Below, in pieces: positions 1,476 through 40,934 of a DNA stretch of 64,000 nt; positions within the stretch are counted from its first letter, which is position 1; the number at the start of each line of letters is the position of its first letter. The position numbers were made by a program, and so were the translations under genes. Source of the stretch: Clavelina lepadiformis (taxonomy: Eukaryota > Chordata > Ascidiacea > Aplousobranchia > Clavelinidae); the NCBI RefSeq assembly GCF_947623445.1, contig NC_135242.1, positions 23,250,001 to 23,314,000 on the forward strand, in the 5' to 3' direction. Below the pieces are notes generated by a model. The model searched no databases. It was not told where the DNA came from and saw only the letters and a program-made list of their open reading frames with translations.

Positions 1476-4400
1476 ATGAAGCGGTTATTTGTTTTTGTTG
1501 TTGCGTACTTGGCTAGTTGGCCATTGGTAGATTGTAAATCAAAACCAGTTATAGCCGGTCTAAGCTCAAAATGGCCGGACACACCTATAATTCATGAGGC
1601 CAGGTTGGTTGCATTTTATTTTTTTGCAAATATCTTGGTTACTTTTTTAATCTTTTGCACAACGAAGTTAGACTTTATGGTGGCTGAATTTAAATTGGTT
1701 TCCAACCCTAACCCCCAAAATAAATGCGAACACGAACAAATTAGGAAAACAGTGAACATCTCACCCCTTGAAATCTAATCTGTGTTCTGTTTGGAAATCT
1801 ATAATTTAAATTGTATTCCTACATCACTGTTCCATTTTGTACTTTTTGTTAATATTATGATTAGCTTGCGATGTTTTTATTTACAGTTTTCTACTTTCAG
1901 TGAATTTTTAGCAGAAGAGAGTGAGGATTTATTTTGGAAATTTGTCGACACAATTGTCATGTTTCAAATCTACCAATCAGAGTCCTCACCTCGGATGCAT
2001 CACGAAGCAATCTTAAAAGCTGCAACTTTAAGCGGAATCAACGACCGACTAAAGAGAAACTTGCTCAAGTTTACGCTGGCCTTGCGGACATATTCACCCA
2101 CCGTAGAAATGTTTCATCAAGTCAGTATAGTCTGTATTTTATGTTGAATTTTTACATCATGAAGTTGCTTGAAGACCAGTTTACCACAATGCATTATTTG
2201 TGGTGTGTTTTTTAAGCGTTTTAGTGCTCATAGTGAACTGATTTAACTGCCCTTGTTGGTCTATGCTACGATATTTAATCTTGCAATATATCAGGTTGTG
2301 AAATTACCATGTTATTCTTTATCCTGGTTTATACAATATGTTGTTTACAATCAGCTTTGAGTGAGTATAATAAAGAAATTGCTAAATCCTGTTGATTTGT
2401 TTTCTCAGCTCGCTCAGCATAACAGTCCATCTCAGTGTGAGTTGTTTTATGATGTCCATGGAGATGTAACTTGTGCAAAGGAAGATTTGGATGGTTTGAT
2501 AGAGAAAGCAAAAGCAGAGAAGAAAGCGCCTTCTTCGTTTCATAGAGATCACATATATCCTGGTTTGTCAGTTTATTCAATTAATGTGTTTTAGTCATTA
2601 TTTCATAAGATATTTCAGCTTGTAACTATGTGTGTAAATTACATGTTCTTTTTTTTGCCAGATGCTTTTCTGACAAGGAAAGCGATTTTGGAAGTTTTAA
2701 CACCATATTCTTGTTGCAGTGTCACGGTCCCTCAATGAAACTGTCATCCTCTACGGGGATATGACATCTCTTGACTTCAAGCTCGCTCATGAATATCTAA
2801 AGAAGAAAGCAGAGGATGGTGTTTTTCGATATGTGCTTCGTCATTTTGTGAAAAACAGGCCGGAAAGAAAAGCAAGATTATCAGGTATATCTGTAACTAA
2901 GCACAACAGGAATCCAGTCGCATGTGAAATAAGTCTATGGGCGCTTAAAAGCTCAATATCTACGAGTACAGTCATAAATTTTGTTGTTATTAAACTGACA
3001 CATTTTTTTTATTTGTTTTCCAACCTCAGGTTATGGCATTGAACTTGCAATTAAGAGTACGGAATATAAAGCTGTGGACGACAGCCAAGTTAAGAGTAAG
3101 TTGATGACATCATTGGATCATCATAATGACATCATCATTGAAAGCTACATATGTTTATGTCGTTAAAAGACTTGATTGAACGTCGACTGTATTTAGGTGA
3201 TTCTGATGCTGGTACGACAGCGGATGACGATGATGTTGAACTAGAAGGTTTTGATTTTGCCATGCTTCGTCGACGTTACCCTGACATGTCGTCACAGTTG
3301 ACTGAGTTTCGCAATCATCTGATCGATTCCACCAATGAAATGCAACCAATGAAAGTTTGGCAACTGCAGGACCTAAGCTTTCAGGTTTAATTTGATTTTG
3401 CGATTTTTCACTCTCTGTGGCTGGTGTTACTTTAATTTGACAAACCTGATCACTGTCTGGTGATGTGGTGTGCTAGGAAACTTACTTCCGTGAGATTTTA
3501 TTAGCTTTATCAGCAGGCATAGTTTTTTGATAAATACAAATTAACAAAACCCACTCCTGTGTTTTGATGTAATTTGTTGTAAGAAATGGTTGATGCAAAC
3601 AATCTCAACACTTTGTTCCCTTAGGCAGCAGCCAGAGTATTAAGTTCCCCTCCAGAGGACCAGTTGAAAGTGCTCAGGGACATAAGTCAAAATTTTCCGA
3701 TAAGAGTTCGGTAAGTGGCAAACATATTTTGTACTGAATAAACAGTGAATATTTCGGCCATGTTTAATTGAATTTAAATTGTTCAGGTCACTGGTGAAAC
3801 AGCAAGTCCCTGATGAAGTAAGAAAGGAGATCCAGAAAAATCAACAGGTTAATTTTTTAATTTTATTAAATGGTTTGTCTCCGATATGTTGTGCAACTTG
3901 TGGTTCTTACTAAGTTATGATTTCTATGGCATGATTTACAATTCACAGGAAATATAAACCATGTAAATTAGTGCATAAATTATGAAAATACTACGTGGGA
4001 AAATTCGAAGTTAACTTTAAAAATCATATGGTTAAAATGACAAGTGCAGGGAACATGTTTATTTATTTACAAGTTAATGTCACACACTTCGAACATAAAT
4101 ATTTTGTACTGTGTAGAAAATAAAATTACGGAATTAATTATTATGCAATGAAATTTACTTTTGCTATTTTTGCAACCGTATAATATTATTATGCTAAAAA
4201 ACACAGATTATAACAGACAATTGTAATCCTGTAGTGATGATAACACAAACCATGACCCACTGGTTACCGATGCAATTATATCGTAGTTTTTCTCAGAAGT
4301 TGATCTCGATTCAGGGGATTCCCTCTTCATGCTAAACGGAATGACAATTGATCTCGATGATATGGACATGTTTGAGTAAGGCCACCCGACATTGCTTGTC

Positions 4401-7400
4401 TTAGAAATCCAAAACCTTAATTTAAACCTTGTAGCAAGCAGATATTATTAAAGCCTGGTAGTTGTTTTCCTGGGACTAATTTATAAAAGAGGGCTTGTTT
4501 TGATGTTGATGAAAATTCTTTTGTGATTTAAAAAAATCTTTAAAGGTGCCTCGCATCAGTGCCAAGTGGCAAGCAATGTTGTTGTGGTGATATTGATTTT
4601 TTTTATATAATTACTAATTTAAACTTAAATTTTTAGCAATTTCTTCGCCACCGACTTGCCCCTGGTGGATTTATGTTAAAAATCAACCAATTACCGATTA
4701 ACATTGACCAGTTTGATTTATTTGCGTGAGTTTTAGACGTGGTGATGCCTGGTAGTAGGTTGAAATTTGTATTCGTCGGCTAGCTTTAGCAGTGGTAGAT
4801 CTAGGATGGTCATGGGCTAATCAAGTTCATTTGGTTGCTGTAGTAGATTTAGCAATTTTAGCGCTCGATAATAATTAATCACATTGGGTTAAAATCCGTG
4901 TTATGTTTTCAAAAGTCACAAATGCATTTGAGTGTGGATTTTATGCAGGTTACTTGACTTACTCAAGGCCGAAGGTAGCTTGATTGGTGGCTTAAAGAAG
5001 CTTGAACTTAAAGGAAAAGTGCTGCAGAAAGTGATGAAATTGAACATCAAAGCAAGCTCAAATGACAAACATTTACTTGACATTCGTGATTCTTCCATTG
5101 TGGTGGGTTTAACAAAACCAAAAAAAATTTTTGCTTGAAGTATCCTAATTTTGTAAGTTAACAAGATTTCCCTCGAACTTTTTCTGCCAAAAAAAGGATT
5201 TAGTTTGAGAGATTTCCTTGAAAACGTAAAGTTTTGTAAATCTTGAACTTATTTTTTATACCACCAGTGGGTCAACGATATTGAACACGATGAGAAATAC
5301 ACTCGGTGGCCGGCCAACGTCCATGAACTTCTTCGTCCTGCCTTTCCTGGTACCTTGAGAAGGATCCGGAAGAACATGTTCCATCTTGTCTTCCTTATCG
5401 ATCCTACTCACGAGGATGCGAAATATTTAATTGAATCAGCCGAGATATTCTGGGCAAATGATGTTCCATTAAGAATAGGTTATTAACTATAATTGATTGC
5501 TGTTATAGTTGTTTTATTAGCAACAGACCAACGTAACTGGTCCCATTTCATGAGGTTTTTTAGCAAAATCAGGATTTTGTATCATATCTGTGGGTGCTAT
5601 TGTCTGCAAATTCAACCCATTTGCCACGTTACCAACTAAAAATGATATTTTTAACCATTCAGTGATTTGTTCCTCTTCATTTTGCCATTACTAAGCTATG
5701 CTTTTTACCAGTATTCAGTAACAATCTGAATGACTGCTTACTTTTGTGACGTCATTGAACACGGTAATGCAACATTTAAGACCAACAACTCTCTGATCAA
5801 ATTTCAATACATAAAAACAGCATTAAAAGTCTTTCGAAACCAAAACAATCATTTTAATGATAAATTGATCTTCATTGTTGCTGCTTGGTCCGATAACCAG
5901 TTTGTTCCTGATTGCAGGATTCTCGTTCCTCGTCGATGATGAAAAAGAAGCTGATGGCAACGAAGATGCGGGTGTTGCTCTCGTGCGAGCTTACAACTTT
6001 GTTCGGGATGAACTGGACGACAACAGCAAGGCTTTTAGCTTTTTGACCGGGGTGAAATGCTTTTTACTTAATCTACGTTAATGTAATGTAATAAACAGAT
6101 TGGATTGGTTCCGTGAGACCTTTACAGATTTTATGCTTATTTTGATTGATAGTTTTGACATTTGAAGTGTGAATTTGAATTGAAAATGAATTTGTCATTG
6201 TGCATGACTATGAAGATGAACCATAATCTTAAAGGCATTTGTTTTAGATTTATAAATCTTTAAATGATGATGAGACGATCTCAGTAGACCACATCAAAAC
6301 GAGGATCCAGAAGAAATTTAAACACGCAGATCTCGATGAAATTCTCAGCCCAGAGTAAGAAATAATCACAAATATATTTTGTCAAAAAGGTTTTTCAAAT
6401 TGTGCGTTGGATAAAGTGTAGAAGTATTTTAAATTTGACTTTTCAATTTTGCGTTAAAATTTTGCAGTTCAGAATTTGACGAGAACCGTGCTTTTGGGAA
6501 AGCTTATCACACCAGGTCCGGCCTTGAAGGACCGATCAATGTGTTGATGAATGGAGCTCTTCTTACCGATGATGAAATTTCACCAGATAATTTTGAACAG
6601 GTTTCTACGCTTAAATTTTTCGCTTGCAAAGTGCTTGGTAGTTTAAAAGGTTGCTTTATGGAAAACTTGTTTAACATCGAATTATGAAAAAAATTTCCAG
6701 CATTTGTGTGTCTCCTACCAAAAATACATTTTATTGTAATCTCCATTGTCACACGGTGTTATTGTTAAAAGACGGTGATCGAGAAAATTTTGGAGTCGAC
6801 TCCGTCACTGCAGCGGGCAGCTTACATGGGCCAGCTGACCAATGATATGAAAGCCCTCGATTATCTGATGTCTCTGCCAGAGGTTGTACCCAGGTTCAAC
6901 AACAGGATCCTTTTCGCAGCAAATAACTTCATCAACTTCCTCGGAAACGATCATGGAGGTGAGGATGGCAAGATCTTTTTATCAGATAAAGAAATTAGTT
7001 TATTATCTGTTACGTATATTTTCTGTGTCTTTTTGGTATTGTTGATGTGTCGTATGTTACGTTGTGTGGTTTTGACTGGTGTGCAACATTACTGTTTCTT
7101 TTTTCAGAAGCTGTTTATAGAAATGTGGGAGATTTTTCAAAACTTTCCTCGACTGACAAAAGTGCCACTTTGAGCAGCGAGCTTAGTGGCCTGTAAGTAA
7201 AATATACTCGTTAATCATCACACATTCCTATAATGTTTACCTTGACATAAAACTTACTCAAATCTGTTGTCTCTTCTTCTGTGATGACATCACACACTTG
7301 TGGTTCAGGTATTTATCGAAGAGCGACAGCCTAAAGCATGTGAGGCCCGTTACAATGTGGATTGTGGCAGACGTGGAGACAGCCAGTGGACGTGACTTTG

Positions 7401-10400
7401 TCCACAATGCCCTTCGTCATTTGGTTAGTAGAAACGTATCATGTGAATATCATATCATGCTCTTCATACGTTAATTAACCAACCAATTAATTATCCAACT
7501 TTGAAATTATCAAACGACGGTGGTGTTGTGTTGGCACCAATGTTCTTATTTTTCAATTGTTCTTATTTTTCCATATCCCCGCGAGTGTAAATTCATCAGG
7601 TCATGCAACGACCTGTTGAAAAGAATGAATTAACTTTTACATTAGCTCGCTACCAATAATTTTTCATATAATAATAATATGTACTTATAATAATATTAAC
7701 TCTAATGAAAGCATCTTTTTTTTAAATCTGCGTTTCAATTTGAATATTGGTTTTATTTTACAGAAAATAAGCAGTTCATGCAGGATCGCCATTATCCATA
7801 ATCCAGGATCAGAATTCAAGTTGGAATCTGCAACTTTTGTAAAAGCTTTTGAAGCTGCTCTGGCAACGTTGAAAAATAACAATGCCAGAAATTTCATCTC
7901 AAAATTGGTATACTGCTGTGAACATTTTTATGCAGTAAACTTTATAGTGTTTTAAATAACAACTAAAGTGTTTTGAAAATGGGTATTAATAAAAACTATC
8001 TTTGAAGTAGTTATAAAATTACGGTGAAACAAGAAAAATTTTACGTCTTCAAATTTAGATGAAAGAAGAAAACGCTCAACAAATAATTTCCGGAGAGAAA
8101 TCTTTGTCAGATTTCTATGTTGGTGGAATGAATGTTGGGGAATTTGAGAAAATGATGAAGTCGGACGATTTCCCGTACATCTATTCTCACGCTGATTGGT
8201 GTACGTCAGTTCTTGGTCTAAGGCCGGGGCAAAGTGCTGTGGTTGCGAGTGGCAAAGTAAGTGGTGCAAGGGGCAATGGTTAACTAGTGCTGGCTTATAG
8301 ACAGTAGTTAGTTAACGAATAGGTAGTTAACAGAATTAACGAATAGATAGTTAACAGTAATACACAATTGAAAAGAGTTAAGCAGAAACGTTAAATACTT
8401 TTTGGGTGTCGTTTAATTTTTTTAATTCACTTGATAATATTAATTGAAAGTTGTTAACTTTGATTAACACTACTTAGCTTCCAAACAAACATTAACATAC
8501 CTTCCAGTGTAAACTTACAAACGTAATTGTATCCAATTAATCCAATTGGTCAATAAAAAAGATTTACGCTGATTAATATTTATGTTATGGTGTTTTGTTC
8601 TCTCCAAACAACACTATGTTTGTGTGATGTTGAATTTACGAAGTGTAATATTTCTTTGAATCAAGGTCATTGGTCCATTAAACCCCGGTGAGAAGTTTCT
8701 CGTCGACGATTTCAATCTCATCGAATCAACTTCCTACTCCAGCTCTTCGGAAGTCCAAGATGCAGTCAATGGTTTAGGATTTGAAGCGCCAAAATGTAAT
8801 TATTTCGCGGTTGAATCTTGAAATTTACACCATTTGCATAACTTACTACTTTCTGTTTAAGAAAATCTGCAAAACACACCACAGTTGTGTTTTCAAATAT
8901 TGTACAAAGAATTGCTGTTTAAGACAATACATGTATATGTGTGAGTTGCTTCCAGTGTGGAAATGTTTTTGCCTTATTTTATGCTTCTTTTCATCATGCG
9001 TACATTATTCTTTTTAAAAAATTTTCAATTAAGTAATTATGGTATATTTAAAATTTGATAATTTTATCTAATTATTGTTTTCAAGCATTGTATTCATATT
9101 TAATTTTTATTTTTTTCTAATATCACAGTAAGTGACCTCATAATGAAGTTGACCTCTCATCTTTTGTCGCAAAACAAAATCGAAGCTGAACGTCGAGATA
9201 TTTCTCGCTACAGCGACCGCCATAGCGTCGTGAAGTTGCCGAGCAGTGCAGGAGAAGATTCCTCTTATGACATCACACTGGTGGTTGACCCAGCCAGTGA
9301 AAAAGCTCAGGAAATTGTGCCGGTTGTTATGGTCAGTCTGATTACGCTGCACAATTCGTAACAGTTAGTACAGAGCTTTTATGATAACATAATTGAGGTG
9401 TCTGTTGAAAAAATAAGTGCACCTCATTGCAAAAGGTTGCATCAGAGGAAAATGTATTATATTTTGACTCTAGCGGCAGTTTAAAGCTGCATGTGCTTTT
9501 ATTGTAACATCGTTAAGGTGATTAGTTCGCGAAGGTTTGCAGCAAGAAATAAAACTACTTCATCTGTAGGCACATTCAAATATCTTTGATGATCACTTTT
9601 TCACTTTCATAGATATTAAAAGAAGTGCTCGATGCCAACGTGAAGATTTTTATGAATTGCCGTGAGAAATTATCGGATATGCCGATCAAGCGATTTTATC
9701 GATTTGTTCTTGAACCAGAGTTGACTTTCAAGGTGATGCTTGAACCCAATTTTACAAATTATTTTTTGGTTTCTCTTTACAACCGGTTAATATGTTCCTG
9801 CTTGTAAACAGAAAATGTAAAATATGTGTGATTAGAAGTTGAAAACGTTGAAAAGTGGAAAAAAAAGTTGAAAAGTTTCCGAAAAAAGTTGAAAAGTTCT
9901 GTTTCCTTCATCCCTAAATCTCTTTCTTATTGAAGGTTGACAACAGCTTCTCAGATGGTCCGTTAGCAAAATTCTTCGACATGCCGTCAAAGTCAATATT
10001 AACGTTGACAATGCATCCACCAGAGGGCTGGATGGTGGAGGTGGTAGAGGCAGTTCACGATCTTGACAACATTCGTCTCGAAAAAATCCGCAGCAAAGTT
10101 GTCACGGCAGAATATGAACTTGAATATCTGGTGTTGGAAGGGCACTGCAGGGACCTAACCACAGGTTTGTTAAAATTTGAACAAGATTTGCAACTTCACA
10201 GGGGCTTGTATTTATAATATGATGTATAAATAGGCATTATGGTTGATTTATAACTTTTGTGATTGATCTGTGATTTGTAAGGTCTGTAATTTGTAAGTTT
10301 GGTTAGTTACCGGTATTAGTTAATTAGCCATAAATTATTCTCGAAACTTATTCTTAAAACGAAACTATTTTTATAGTATTGTGCTCATAAGCTTGATCAT

Positions 10401-13400
10401 CACCTGCATTGAGATTTCATTAAAAAAACAAAATAAATTATAAAAATCAGTAAAATTACTTGTAACGTTGAAACCCAGGTAGTCCGCCACGTGGACTTCA
10501 ATTCACCCTCGGTGCCACCCCTGACACGGTTGCCGTGGATACCATCGTCATGGCAAACTTGGGATACTTTCAGTTGAAAGCAAACCCTGGTGTTTGGTAT
10601 TTGAACCTTCGTGAGGGTAAATCACGTGATATCTATCAGATCACGTCACATGATAGCACGGACTCATTAAATGATGACGTCATAATCTTGATGGACAGTT
10701 TTAAAAGCAAAGTGATATTAATTAAGGTATTCCATTGTTCCTATTTGGTCGTTAGCGCAGAGTACTTTGGTTTTACCTTAAAGTAACAAAAGGTTAAAAG
10801 AACGTTGCAAAGTGTCCATAGACATTTCATTACTTAGGTTTCGCGCTTAGGTTTCGTTTCATTACTTAGGTTTCACGAAATCATAGTTATGTCATCAGTT
10901 CCTTATCTGTCATCATTTTCTCACATCATCTCCAGTTTCAGTGCAAATGTCATAAAAATGAAGTTTTAGAAAGTTATCGAAATGTGAAATGAAATTATGT
11001 GTGTCATCTTGGGGTTTAAAATTTTAGGGGAAAAGATTGCTGCAATAAACTGCATCACTGTGCTGTAATATCACGTCATGTTTTAATAATTCGGTTTATA
11101 CAATGTGTCTCGTAACACACCGAACCCTTCCGTAATGCAAATCTGCACATCTCAGGTGTCGAAACGTCCGGAGAAAATCGGATCGTCGTTGATCGAAGAA
11201 GATGACACGGAACCGGAAGAGGAAAAAGAAGGCGGAGGGATCTGGGATTCAGTTAAAAGGTGGATTGAAACGCGGTTGTCGTAAGTTTAAATAAAAAATT
11301 AAAAGCAAAATAAAAATTCTTGCTCTTATCTTTTACGGTTGCTGTCCTGGTTAAATATTGTTTTTTATCTTCAGCACGATTACCGGTGGTGGGAGTAAAA
11401 CTCAGGCGGTTGAAAATGCAGAGTCATCCACCGATGTGATCAACATATTTTCCCTCGCATCGGGACATTTATACGAGCGCTTGATGAGGATTATGATGCT
11501 TAGTGTCATGAGTCAGACTAAGACAAGGGTCAAATTCTGGATCCTGAAAAATTACATCTCGCCGCAGTTCAAGGTGGGATTTTAATTTTTTCAGTCTTGA
11601 ACTTGAAATTGATCTGCAGCATGCTGCACAGCACCAACTAGTAATGAGAAATCTTCACTAAATTCAGAGCAATTGAACCAGATTGTTTCTACGAGTAATA
11701 ACTTTCATTACCTTGAGGTTGCTCCATTCGACCAAGGACATGCAGACGTGCTGTGTGAAATAATTTAACAAGGGACAGAACGTGGCATAAACAGCTAATC
11801 GTGCTTTGATATTTCAGGATTTTATACCTCATTTAGCAAAGGAATATGGCTTTGAATATGAGCTGATCCAGTACAAGTGGCCGAGATGGCTTCACCAGCA
11901 AACTGAAAAGCAAAGAACTATGTGGGGGTGAGTTGTGCTTTTTATTCATTCATAAAGACTTTGTGGCAATTTTATAGAATGCTCATGCATTCTAGAAAAG
12001 GAAGCATTCATTCTAGAAAACGTTCATGAGCATTGAGCTCACAAAAACCATCACGTCACATTTAATCACGTCAGCATCACATTTACATATTTACAACTGA
12101 ACTAAAAACATCATTAAATCTGTTATTTCGTTAAAATCTCAGATACAAGATTTTATTCCTTGACGTCTTGTTCCCTCTGAGTATCGACAAAATCATATTC
12201 GTCGACGCTGATCAGATTGTGAGGGCTGACTTGAAGGTGGGCTTTTATTGCTTATTATTGAACAGATTACATTCTATCGCTGCATATAATAGATATTGTT
12301 AACTTGTTATAAATGGATCGGTAGCGGTGTTAGTTGGTTGTTGATGTCTTTGGCAAAGACACGAAATCATTGAAGTGAGTTACTTTCCTTGCTTCAGGAG
12401 CTGCGTGATCTTGATCTCGAGGGCAACCCCTATGGTTACACCCCCTTCTGTGACGACCGAAAAGAAATGGATGGATTCAGGTTCTGGAAAGGGGGGTACT
12501 GGGCCAGTCACCTAGCAGGGAGAAAATATCATATTAGGTGATGGTTGGATATATTATTTCGTTTTGTTCGAAATTTAAAACTTGAAATTTCAGGCTGCAC
12601 TCAACTATAATTGTGATACTTCAAGGATTGGATAAACATATAAGTTAATTAATTATAAAATTACCACTTTTTCTGGACAAAATTAAAAATCTTGATTTTG
12701 AAATTGCAGCGCCATCTATGTTGTGGATTTAAAAAAATTCCGCAAGATCGCTGCCGGTGACCGACTTCGTGGACAATATCAGGGACTTTCCCAGGACCCG
12801 AACTCTCTGGCCAACCTGGACCAAGACTTACCGAACAACATGATACATCAGGTTGGAATAAAATCCCTTCCCCAGGAGTGGCTGTGGTGCGCCACCTGGT
12901 GTAGTGAGGAATCAAAGAGCAGGGCGAAGACAATTGATTTGGTAAGATGTCTATGTAAAACTATCAAATTTAGAAAAACTGTCGATTTTAAAAAAGCTGC
13001 TGTTATACATTTGGAGCAAAACTATGTTTTGTCCTGTTGACTTTGATTTGATATTTCGACTTAAATTTGACTTTTTCCGACTTTTCAAAGTGCAATAATC
13101 CGCTGACAAAGGAGCCGAAATTGGAGGCTGCGGTTCGAATCGTTCCAGAATGGACAAACTACGACGAAAAAATTAAAGCTCTCCATGAAAGAGTGGAAAA
13201 TGCAAATAAAACCGACAAGTCTAAAGGTAAGTTTACCTTCATCAAATAAACCAAGATAAGATGCTGCGTATGCGTCCCCACTTTTTTCGCTGAGATTTAC
13301 CCATTCTGTATGTTGCAGAAAAAACAGTTGCTTCTCATGAGAAAGGTGAGTGTTGCGTTCTTAGCATCCGGCTTCAAAATTGTGTCGATTCTCTTAATTT

Positions 13401-13551
13401 GAACAATGACAGCAAACTGCCTTGTTCTGGCATGGTGGCGACTCGTAGCAGTAAAATTATTTTGGAAAAATTGATGAAGTGTTAATTGCTCTAAAACTTC
13501 AATTTTTTTTTCTTAGATTCATCTCAACGTAAAACTCATGACGAATTCTAA
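1476..13551 (+). CDS. UGGT1: UDP-glucose:glycoprotein glucosyltransferase, ER folding sensor
   Basis: The enzyme reglucosylates N-glycans on misfolded glycoproteins in the ER lumen so that they re-enter the calnexin/calreticulin cycle. About 30 exons can be joined in phase and align with human UGGT1 along its length. It opens with a signal peptide ([20 protein letters not shown]) and the ASEFLAEES block. Thioredoxin-like domains follow, and then beta-sandwich segments such as [12 protein letters not shown]. The GT24 catalytic domain lies at about 11.4-13.2 kb; its DxD metal site is in [15 protein letters not shown] (exon from 12142), followed by [13 protein letters not shown] and [15 protein letters not shown]. 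Early exons include 1476-1603, 1901-2120, 2409-2562, 2720-2884, 3030-3095, 3197-3384, 3625-3710 and 3787-3847. Two alternative 89-nt exons (4287-4375 and 4637-4725) encode the same segment. The last exon ends KTHDEF, a variant of the usual HDEL/REEL tail. I see one UGGT only, so UGGT1 versus UGGT2 is not meaningful here. Confidence 0.97.
4287..4375 (+). CDS. UGGT1: UGGT alternative exon a (conserved version)
   Basis: This exon runs from a weak acceptor (TCGTAG) to a GTAAGG donor, is 89 nt long, begins in phase 0 and leaves two bases. It encodes [20 protein letters not shown] followed by [10 protein letters not shown]. This matches the human UGGT1 segment that contains LQPGDSALFINGLHMDLD (shared GDS, LF, NG and DLD). 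It can be spliced from the exon ending at 3847 and into the exon starting at 4949 without a frameshift. It is part of the parent gene and is listed separately because a second exon encodes the same segment. Confidence 0.75.
4637..4725 (+). CDS. UGGT1: UGGT alternative exon b (diverged version)
   Basis: This exon has a strong acceptor (AATTTTTAG) and a GTGAGT donor. It is exactly 89 nt long with the same phases as exon a. It encodes [20 protein letters not shown] followed by [10 protein letters not shown], which aligns over the same 30 residues but lacks the GDS and NG signatures. Because 89 is not a multiple of three, including both exons would shift the frame of the rest of UGGT, so only one can be used per productive transcript. 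Confidence 0.72.
8290..8360. repeat. Short degenerate tandem repeat in a UGGT intron
   Basis: The unit GTTAACGAATAGRTAGTTAACAG is repeated imperfectly about twice between roughly 8310 and 8356. It lies in the intron after the exon encoding [10 protein letters not shown]. It is a minor local duplication with no apparent function. Confidence 0.5.
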
Positions 13552-22104: not shown

Positions 22105-22716
22105 TCAACAACAATCTCCTTTCTTTTTAGATTTTGTCTTTTTCGTGTGAAGGTTCACTCGATCGGCGTCTTGCTTGTCCAACAGGGATGTCTTCTTTTT
22201 TTGCAGAACCTGACGAGTTATCGCCACAAACATCTCCTCTACGTTTTTATTTTCTTTGGCACTTGTTTCAAACAATGATATGTTAATCTGCTCTGCAAAT
22301 GTTTCAGCATCTTCGGTCTCGACAACTTTCTTCTCTGGTTCGTCGTCTTTGTTTCCGACCAATATTCGATTCACCGAGTCACAATTCTGTTCGATTTCTT
22401 GCAGCCATCTCTTGACATTCACAAACGACTCAGCACGTTGTACGTCATAAACAACAATCACGCCGTGTGTTCCCCGGTAATAGGTTGAAGTGATCGTGCG
22501 AAATCGTTCCTGTCCTGCAGTGTCCCATATCTGTAACTTCACTTTTTCGCCATCAATCTCGATTGTTCGTAATTTGAAATCGACTCCGATTGTCGTTATA
22601 TAACTACCGGAAAAAGTGTTGTCGGCAAATCTCAGAAGTAAACTGCTTTTGCCAACACCACTGTCTCCAATTATCAACAATTTAAACAAATGATCATACG
22701 CCGCTGCACTGGCCAT
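22105..22716 (-). CDS. RAB35: Rab GTPase, Rab35 class
   Basis: This small GTPase controls endosomal recycling and cargo return to the plasma membrane. The 203-residue protein is a single exon. It shows the P-loop GDSGVGKS (residues 17-24), switch [12 protein letters not shown], the switch II motif [20 protein letters not shown]4 NKDD, G5 ETSAKEN, and a C-terminal Cys-Cys (KKGDCC) for double geranylgeranylation. The block [13 protein letters not shown] and the opening [13 protein letters not shown] are characteristic of Rab35 rather than Rab1 or Rab8. The neighbouring ACSS3 gene has many introns, so the uninterrupted coding region is notable. The start is the first ATG of the frame. Confidence 0.97.
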
Positions 22717-40229: not shown

Positions 40230-40934
40230 TCACAGACCATCGCGGATGGTCCTCCTTCTTAGTGATTCCACATATTCCAACGCGCTGTCCAAGGCGGTAA
40301 TTTTGGGTTCGGGTAACGGGGCCGGGCCCTCCCTGAGCATGACATAGTAGTTGGCAAAACGACAGTGACCAATAGCAGGTGGTCTTCCAGCTGCTCGGAA
40401 TATCGGAAATTTTATTTGAGAATGTCTCGACGTAAATGACGTTGCAACATGCAAATTTGATTTGAATTCAACGTTGTGTTCTTTCACAGCCAGCTCCTGA
40501 GCTTCAAGAAGGACTTCTCGGATAATTTTGGCACCTTTGTTGTTAATGTAATCTAGTTTTGAAATTGCCTCATCAATATTCATATTCAGAACTAAACAGG
40601 AAACGTGAATCATTTTCTTTGTGGGATAACGAATCTTTGCACGGCCATGATATATCTCGGCTGGCCGAATACCATCTTCAGGATTCATCGGTGGATACAA
40701 CATTTCATTCTTGTCGGTCCATTCACCAAGATCTCTGTGCCATTTATTGACGTGTTGTTGTGCTTGTTCTCTTATTCTTCTGTGTTGTCCCGGGTCACGC
40801 AAGGCCAACACGTGAGCGCTTTGGTGGAAACCACGAAAATGTGAACATGTGCCTAAAATATAACCAGAATTTTGCATCAGTTTTCCTAAAGTTCCACAGC
40901 ATCTCAGCAGAAAAGATGGCACTGTGGTTGCCAT
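40230..40934 (-). CDS. MRPL22: Mitochondrial large-ribosomal-subunit protein uL22m
   Basis: The product is a structural protein of the mitochondrial 39S subunit that lines the peptide exit tunnel. The 234-residue frame is a single exon. A basic N-terminus suitable for mitochondrial import comes first, then NEMLYPPMNPEDGIRPAEIY. The L22 core follows (KKMIHVSCLVLNMNIDEAI, KGAKIIREVLLEAQELAVKE, HNVEFKSNLHVAT) and then the tail SALEYVESLRRRTIRDGL, which matches animal MRPL22. An acceptor-like TTTTCAG lies 15 bases before the ATG on the minus strand, so the leader is spliced or trans-spliced. It is slightly longer than human MRPL22 (206 residues). Confidence 0.95.
   Translation of the reverse strand: MATTVPSFLLRCCGTLGKLMQNSGYILGTCSHFRGFHQSAHVLALRDPGQHRRIREQAQQHVNKWHRDLGEWTDKNEMLYPPMNPEDGIRPAEIYHGRAKIRYPTKKMIHVSCLVLNMNIDEAISKLDYINNKGAKIIREVLLEAQELAVKEHNVEFKSNLHVATSFTSRHSQIKFPIFRAAGRPPAIGHCRFANYYVMLREGPAPLPEPKITALDSALEYVESLRRRTIRDGL

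Follow-up and report, generated by a model that had tools for sequence, protein, structure and literature searches.

A tandem pair of 89-nt exons, probably spliced mutually exclusively, in the UGGT gene of the ascidian Clavelina lepadiformis

UGGT, the enzyme that checks the folding of glycoproteins, is usually treated as one all-purpose checkpoint. Here we analyse a 64,000-nt stretch of the genome of the ascidian Clavelina lepadiformis (NC_135242.1, positions 23,250,001 to 23,314,000; hereafter the window), which carries a UGGT gene with two adjacent versions of its exon 9, named 9a and 9b, and we argue from their sequence that this animal probably makes two versions of UGGT from one gene.

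The closest described systems are clusters of mutually exclusive exons and duplicated or alternative exon pairs in other genes; what is said here of these genes and of papers cited by PMC number applies to the portions of the sources that were available. Like the pair in UGGT, the clusters of a human atlas (PMC5740500) are made up of adjacent exons that are homologous and equal in length and phase, and a frame shift on joint inclusion, as found here, is one of the routes of regulation named there. The atlas takes as its criterion junction reads into both exons, with none joining them except frame-shifting ones. The present pair differs in lying in UGGT and in being known from genomic sequence alone. 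U2AF1 (exons Ab/3), SNAP25 (exon 5) and OGDH (exons 4a/4b) likewise have a duplicated or alternative pair of which one member is chosen, and in U2AF1 one copy is less and the other more favourable, as with 9a and 9b; these are other genes, whose alternative forms are reported as observed, whereas the pair described here is read from the DNA.

Another route to two forms of UGGT is on record. UGGT1 and UGGT2 of vertebrates and uggt-a and uggt-b of Caenorhabditis arose by whole-gene duplication (PMC7003075), whereas here one gene holds one exon pair; the main text of that paper has no occurrence of 'exon', 'Ciona' or 'tunicate', and the word UGGT is absent from the main texts of PMC5740500 and PMC9741552. 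A tabulation of genes whose splicing is altered in human macrophages includes UGGT2 (PMC5352146) with no mention of an exon pair, and the available text of that paper and of PMC8936114, PMC12120171 and PMC6791201 contains no UGGT exon pair. An earlier, model-made note on this DNA (the sequence-only reading) had remarked that no such pair was known in UGGT, and our search agrees: mutually exclusive exons are a known kind of element, and the pair in UGGT is apparently unreported, no such pair having been found in the open-access literature searched, a scope that leaves most subscription papers and genome annotations outside.

Layout and reading frame of the exon 9 pair

The UGGT gene was modelled by hand on the forward strand. 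The model has no internal stop, its 31 introns are all GT-AG, and all UGGT Pfam domains (PF18400, PF18401, PF18402, PF18403, PF06427 and PF18404; named Thioredoxin_12, _13, _14 and _15, UDP-g_GGTase and Glyco_transf_24) lie in one protein of 1541 amino acids. By these domains the gene is a complete UGGT of family GT24, with TRXL1-4, the beta-sandwich and the GT24 domain together, and glucosyltransferase activity is predicted for its product. Its coding span and the features around exon 9 are as follows.

1476..13551, + strand: UGGT gene coding span, hand-built model, 32 coding exons when a single exon 9 is counted, 1541 amino acids
3787..3847, + strand: exon 8, shared upstream exon, ending in phase 0 (NQQ), donor 8.2 bits
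4287..4375, + strand: exon 9a, 89 nt, phase 0 to 2, AG/GT flanks, PF18401 129.7 bits in context
4297..4375, + strand: candidate short form of exon 9a, entered at the internal TTTTTCTCAG acceptor, frame shifted, 12 codons and then a stop
4376..4636, + strand: intron separating 9a and 9b, 261 nt
4637..4725, + strand: exon 9b, 89 nt, phase 0 to 2, AG/GT flanks, PF18401 119.1 bits in context
4949..5102, + strand: exon 10, shared downstream exon, entered in phase 2, acceptor 10.0 bits

In the manner of a mutually exclusive pair, 9a and 9b are adjacent internal exons of equal length (89/89 nt) and the same phase, they are homologous in sequence, and both have plausible AG/GT splice sites. The sequence-only reading had proposed two such 89-nt exons running from phase 0 to phase 2, and their coordinates, lengths, phases, splicing partners (3847 and 4949) and homology are all confirmed.

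With either 9a alone or 9b alone, the UGGT model is fully open. Inclusion of both exons ends the protein early, after residue 399, omission of both ends it after residue 358, and entry into 9a at the internal acceptor 4297 ends it after residue 368. A productive transcript therefore needs exactly one of the two exons, with 9a read from 4287, which bears out the earlier claim that productive transcripts must choose.

Similarity and coding constraint of exon 9b

An intronic open frame might happen to resemble exon 9. A frame of 29 codons is not rare in itself, since the two strands of the 64 kb hold 88 open AG-89-GT windows (overlapping, and including 9a and 9b); ranked among these, 9b comes second. 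By contrast, several results speak against a chance resemblance.

First, we scored overlapping translated windows on both strands for similarity to three UGGT references, a provisional human UGGT1 stretch and two fungal sequences. Exon 9a scores 40.3, 9b 30.0 and the next window 15.0, which places 9b second of 127,856 windows with twice the score of the best of the remaining 127,854. When the provisional human stretch is dropped and the two fungal references alone are used, the corresponding scores are 30.0, 23.0 and 17.5; 9b is still second, of 127,858 windows, at a smaller margin, and its lead over the next window is modest.

Second, in the PF18401 comparison in context, the 129.7 bits of 9a and 119.1 bits of 9b stand against 90.1-98.5 bits for eight shuffled versions of 9b, all of which it beats, by 21-29 bits. 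Over a longer stretch the scores are 128.7 bits with 9a, 118.3 with 9b and 84.6 with exon 9 masked.

Third, 9b matches what one would expect of a duplicate in its position, length and phase. When the introns flanking exons 2-31 were scanned for open candidates in the same phase and within 30 nt of the exon's length, 23 were obtained, of which only 9b and its shorter version score above zero. There is no sign of a third copy of exon 9 among plus-strand windows starting in 3848-4948, where the best other window scores -4.3. We regard a chance resemblance as exceedingly improbable.

Aligned without gaps, the two peptides are identical at 8/30 positions and positive at 14/30 (identities included), with a BLOSUM score of 34. 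Nucleotide identity is 37/89, distributed over codon positions 1, 2 and 3 as 14/30, 19/30 and 4/29, and positions 2 and 3 differ (Fisher p 0.00014). Third positions look saturated and second positions do not, a pattern that resembles long coding evolution. In 20,000 runs of neutral decay to the observed identity, started from 9a (the real ancestor may differ), 16% of sequences were still open, 3.3% kept AG and GT, and a single run retained frame and splice sites together with a score as high as that observed.

Scored for a match to any reference, the 24 core columns divide into 8 matched by both exons, 5 by 9a only, 4 by 9b only and 7 by neither; the matches confined to 9a include the glycine of an NG motif, and those confined to 9b include two leucines common to all three references. 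Each exon thus keeps UGGT residues that the other has lost, and on this showing neither appears to have been copied recently from the other; judged by these columns and by the identities at the three codon positions, 9b is not a recent dead copy of 9a. The codon-usage score of 9b (4.6 bits) is positive in its own frame only and is reached by about 1% of 808 overlapping open intron windows. Both exons, in their residues and codons, bear marks of coding constraint.

Splice signals and the choice between the exons

Scored with a small splice-site matrix, built from 30 introns of this one gene, the acceptors reach 1.7 bits for 9a, 4.9 for the internal site at 4297 and 4.5 for 9b, the gene's other 30 acceptors spanning -4.5 to 13.3; the donors reach 4.0 bits for 9a and 5.1 for 9b, in a range of 1.8 to 10.4 for the gene's other donors. 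The first 10 nt of 9a (4287-4296, TTTTTCTCAG) form a second, better-scoring and frame-shifting 3' splice site, and a TACTAAT motif resembling a branch point, found by eye, stands about 20 nt upstream of the 9b acceptor. The sequence-only reading had called the 9a acceptor weak, which fits its place near the low end of the gene's range; it had also called the 9b acceptor strong, which was overstated.

We think it probable that exon 9 of UGGT duplicated in tandem long ago and that both copies have been kept as functional coding exons, spliced mutually exclusively. Both would actually be spliced in, a single copy per transcript, with exon 8 before it and exon 10 after it, and transcripts with both exons or with neither would be removed by nonsense-mediated decay. 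Exon 9b would be the more readily spliced of the two, and 9a would need activation because of its weak acceptor and the frame-shifting rival 10 nt inside it.

Several observations weigh against this account. The acceptor of 9a ties with the second-weakest among the 30 other acceptors of the gene, and that of 9b is middling, tied for about 9th-10th lowest. The codon-usage score of 9b is far under that of 9a (17.2), and 9b has lost the NG glycine that is present in all three references. The 261-nt intron between the exons seems too long for steric exclusion, and a crude whole-intron duplex test for RNA docking or selector pairing gave nothing above shuffles, the duplex energies for I8-I9, I8-I10 and I9-I10 being equalled or undercut by 88, 40 and 42 of 100 shuffles, respectively.

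The two weaknesses within 9b would suit a relic, that is, an old duplicate, formerly used and recently lost, with all present transcripts using 9a, which is also the nearer of the two to the provisional stretch of human UGGT1 and scores 10 bits higher in PF18401. Such a relic would nonetheless have kept its frame, splice sites, phase and second positions intact despite third positions that look saturated, and its acceptor and donor both outscore those of 9a; we judge this history unlikely.

The weak in-frame acceptor of 9a can be read the opposite way, with 9b constitutive and 9a either silent or mainly a poison exon that lowers UGGT output through the site at 4297, which at 4.9 bits, like the 9b acceptor at 4.5, outscores the 1.7 bits of 4287 and whose use brings a stop after 12 codons. 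Against this stand the PF18401 score of 9a, the better-conserved coding exon of the two, and the first 10 nt of 9a themselves: they supply the codons for FFS plus the opening base of the next, for E, in register with the start of 9b, which points to long use of the acceptor at 4287. We give this arrangement little credence.

With no pairing beyond that of shuffles, exclusive use is assured in silico by reading frame alone. Both exons might then be coding and not strictly exclusive, double inclusion and skipping serving as a regulated switch through nonsense-mediated decay that sets the amount of UGGT, with the difference in protein secondary. The early stops that follow from including both or neither, and the absence of any structural enforcement of exclusivity among the features seen, are what such a switch would show, but it leaves the conservation of the 9b protein sequence unexplained, and we consider it very unlikely. 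Duplication followed by mutually exclusive use of two functional exons is the reading that we prefer.

As to the RNA of this region in general, no Rfam family reaches its gathering score in 3000-6000. Nine inverted pairs of 10-26 nt, mostly AT-rich, lie in 3700-5110, and one of them, 15 nt long and 93% complementary, matches 4493-4507 in the intron between 9a and 9b with 5043-5057 in exon 10.

The UGGT locus and the segment encoded by exon 9

Searches of the animal's own genome (209.06 Mb, 95 contigs), scored on the best candidates only, place the GT24 domain at this locus alone, in 6 pieces; among these best-scoring candidates there is no second UGGT locus and no further copy of 9a or 9b. Two markers of ascidian identity likewise gave no match in this genome: GH6, a tunicate marker that also matched none of 14 controls and so carries no weight, and COX1, which matched 8 of 14 controls and would have allowed the mitochondrial code to be read. 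Pattern searches beyond this genome gave 7 matches in viral contigs, with no relative among them, and 206 matches in genome contigs, with two loci in bacterial metagenome-assembled genomes (L011 and L012) and no convincing equivalent of exon 9. Short stretches there (L011:3326-3391 and L012:3601-3669) are 52-55% similar to a UGGT motif over 22-23 residues, a resemblance that we guess is due to chance.

The usual signal for retrieval to the endoplasmic reticulum is of the HDEL/KDEL type. The modelled UGGT ends in HDEF, encoded by a last short exon (13517-13551) that is the least certain part of the model, and this ending may be a variant retrieval signal or a modelling error in that exon; human UGGT1 ends in REEL (PMC12120171). 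Elsewhere in the window, a 360-residue open reading frame (ORF) directly upstream of UGGT (84-1166) is, in one frame, a relative of zinc-type alcohol dehydrogenases (PF00107, PF08240); on the minus strand, 22105-22716 is an uninterrupted 203-residue ORF for a Ras-family GTPase (PF00071, 212.6 bits), and 40230-40934 is a 234-residue ORF with a ribosomal protein L22 domain (PF00237, 49.5 bits).

Exon 9 maps to Thioredoxin_13 (PF18401), the counterpart of TRXL4 in CtUGGT, and aligns with about positions 325-349 of chain 5mu1; the chain index and the paper's numbering may be up to about 20 residues apart, and exon 9 stays within TRXL4 (275-410 and 897-950; PMC8024514) in either case. The sequence-only reading had placed it in a thioredoxin-like substrate-sensing domain. 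The location in TRXL4 stands, and on a sensing role the available texts differ. One assigns TRXL4 to the relatively rigid portion of UGGT and suggests that a disordered loop of this domain (243-285), which exon 9 does not cover, may be a hydrophobic site (PMC8024514), and another makes TRXL4 part of a rigid scaffold, with recognition expected mainly from TRXL2 and TRXL3 (PMC7687155). A third terms TRXL4 'required for substrate binding' and describes a fatal infant case with an in-frame deletion of eight TRXL4 residues, p.Asp390_Gly397del, in which glucosylation was below detection (PMC12120171).

About 30 residues of TRXL4 would set the two predicted proteins apart, chiefly through their charge, the net value (K+R-D-E) being -9 for 9a and +1 for 9b. 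The value for the provisional human UGGT1 segment is -3. We tentatively take the eight deleted residues to be DSALFING, the core of exon 9, as this is the sole 8-residue run from D to G in the provisional human stretch; at the corresponding place 9a has DSLFMLNG and 9b has GFMLKINQ. On the basis of the human deletion and this provisional match, the exon 9 segment matters for UGGT. A swap of 9a for 9b would most likely affect fold stability, contacts or activity: the two forms would differ in the folding of TRXL4 or in its contacts with neighbouring domains, partners or substrate, and hence in activity, and not at the catalytic site. An effect on client preference, as put forward in the sequence-only reading, is possible.

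If the pair is what it seems, two natural isoforms that differ in one 30-residue segment would be a ready-made experiment on the part of TRXL4 in misfold sensing, the point on which the cited papers differ, and, by the provisional human sequence, that segment coincides with the site at which a human disease deletion abolishes activity. Glycoprotein quality control would then be tunable by splicing. More tentatively, the choice of exon may be a regulated switch between an acidic and a neutral-to-basic TRXL4 that differ where activity depends on the segment, set by tissue or stage and altering the stringency or the partners of glycoprotein retention; in that case splicing would serve this ascidian for a task to which vertebrates and Caenorhabditis may devote a pair of genes.

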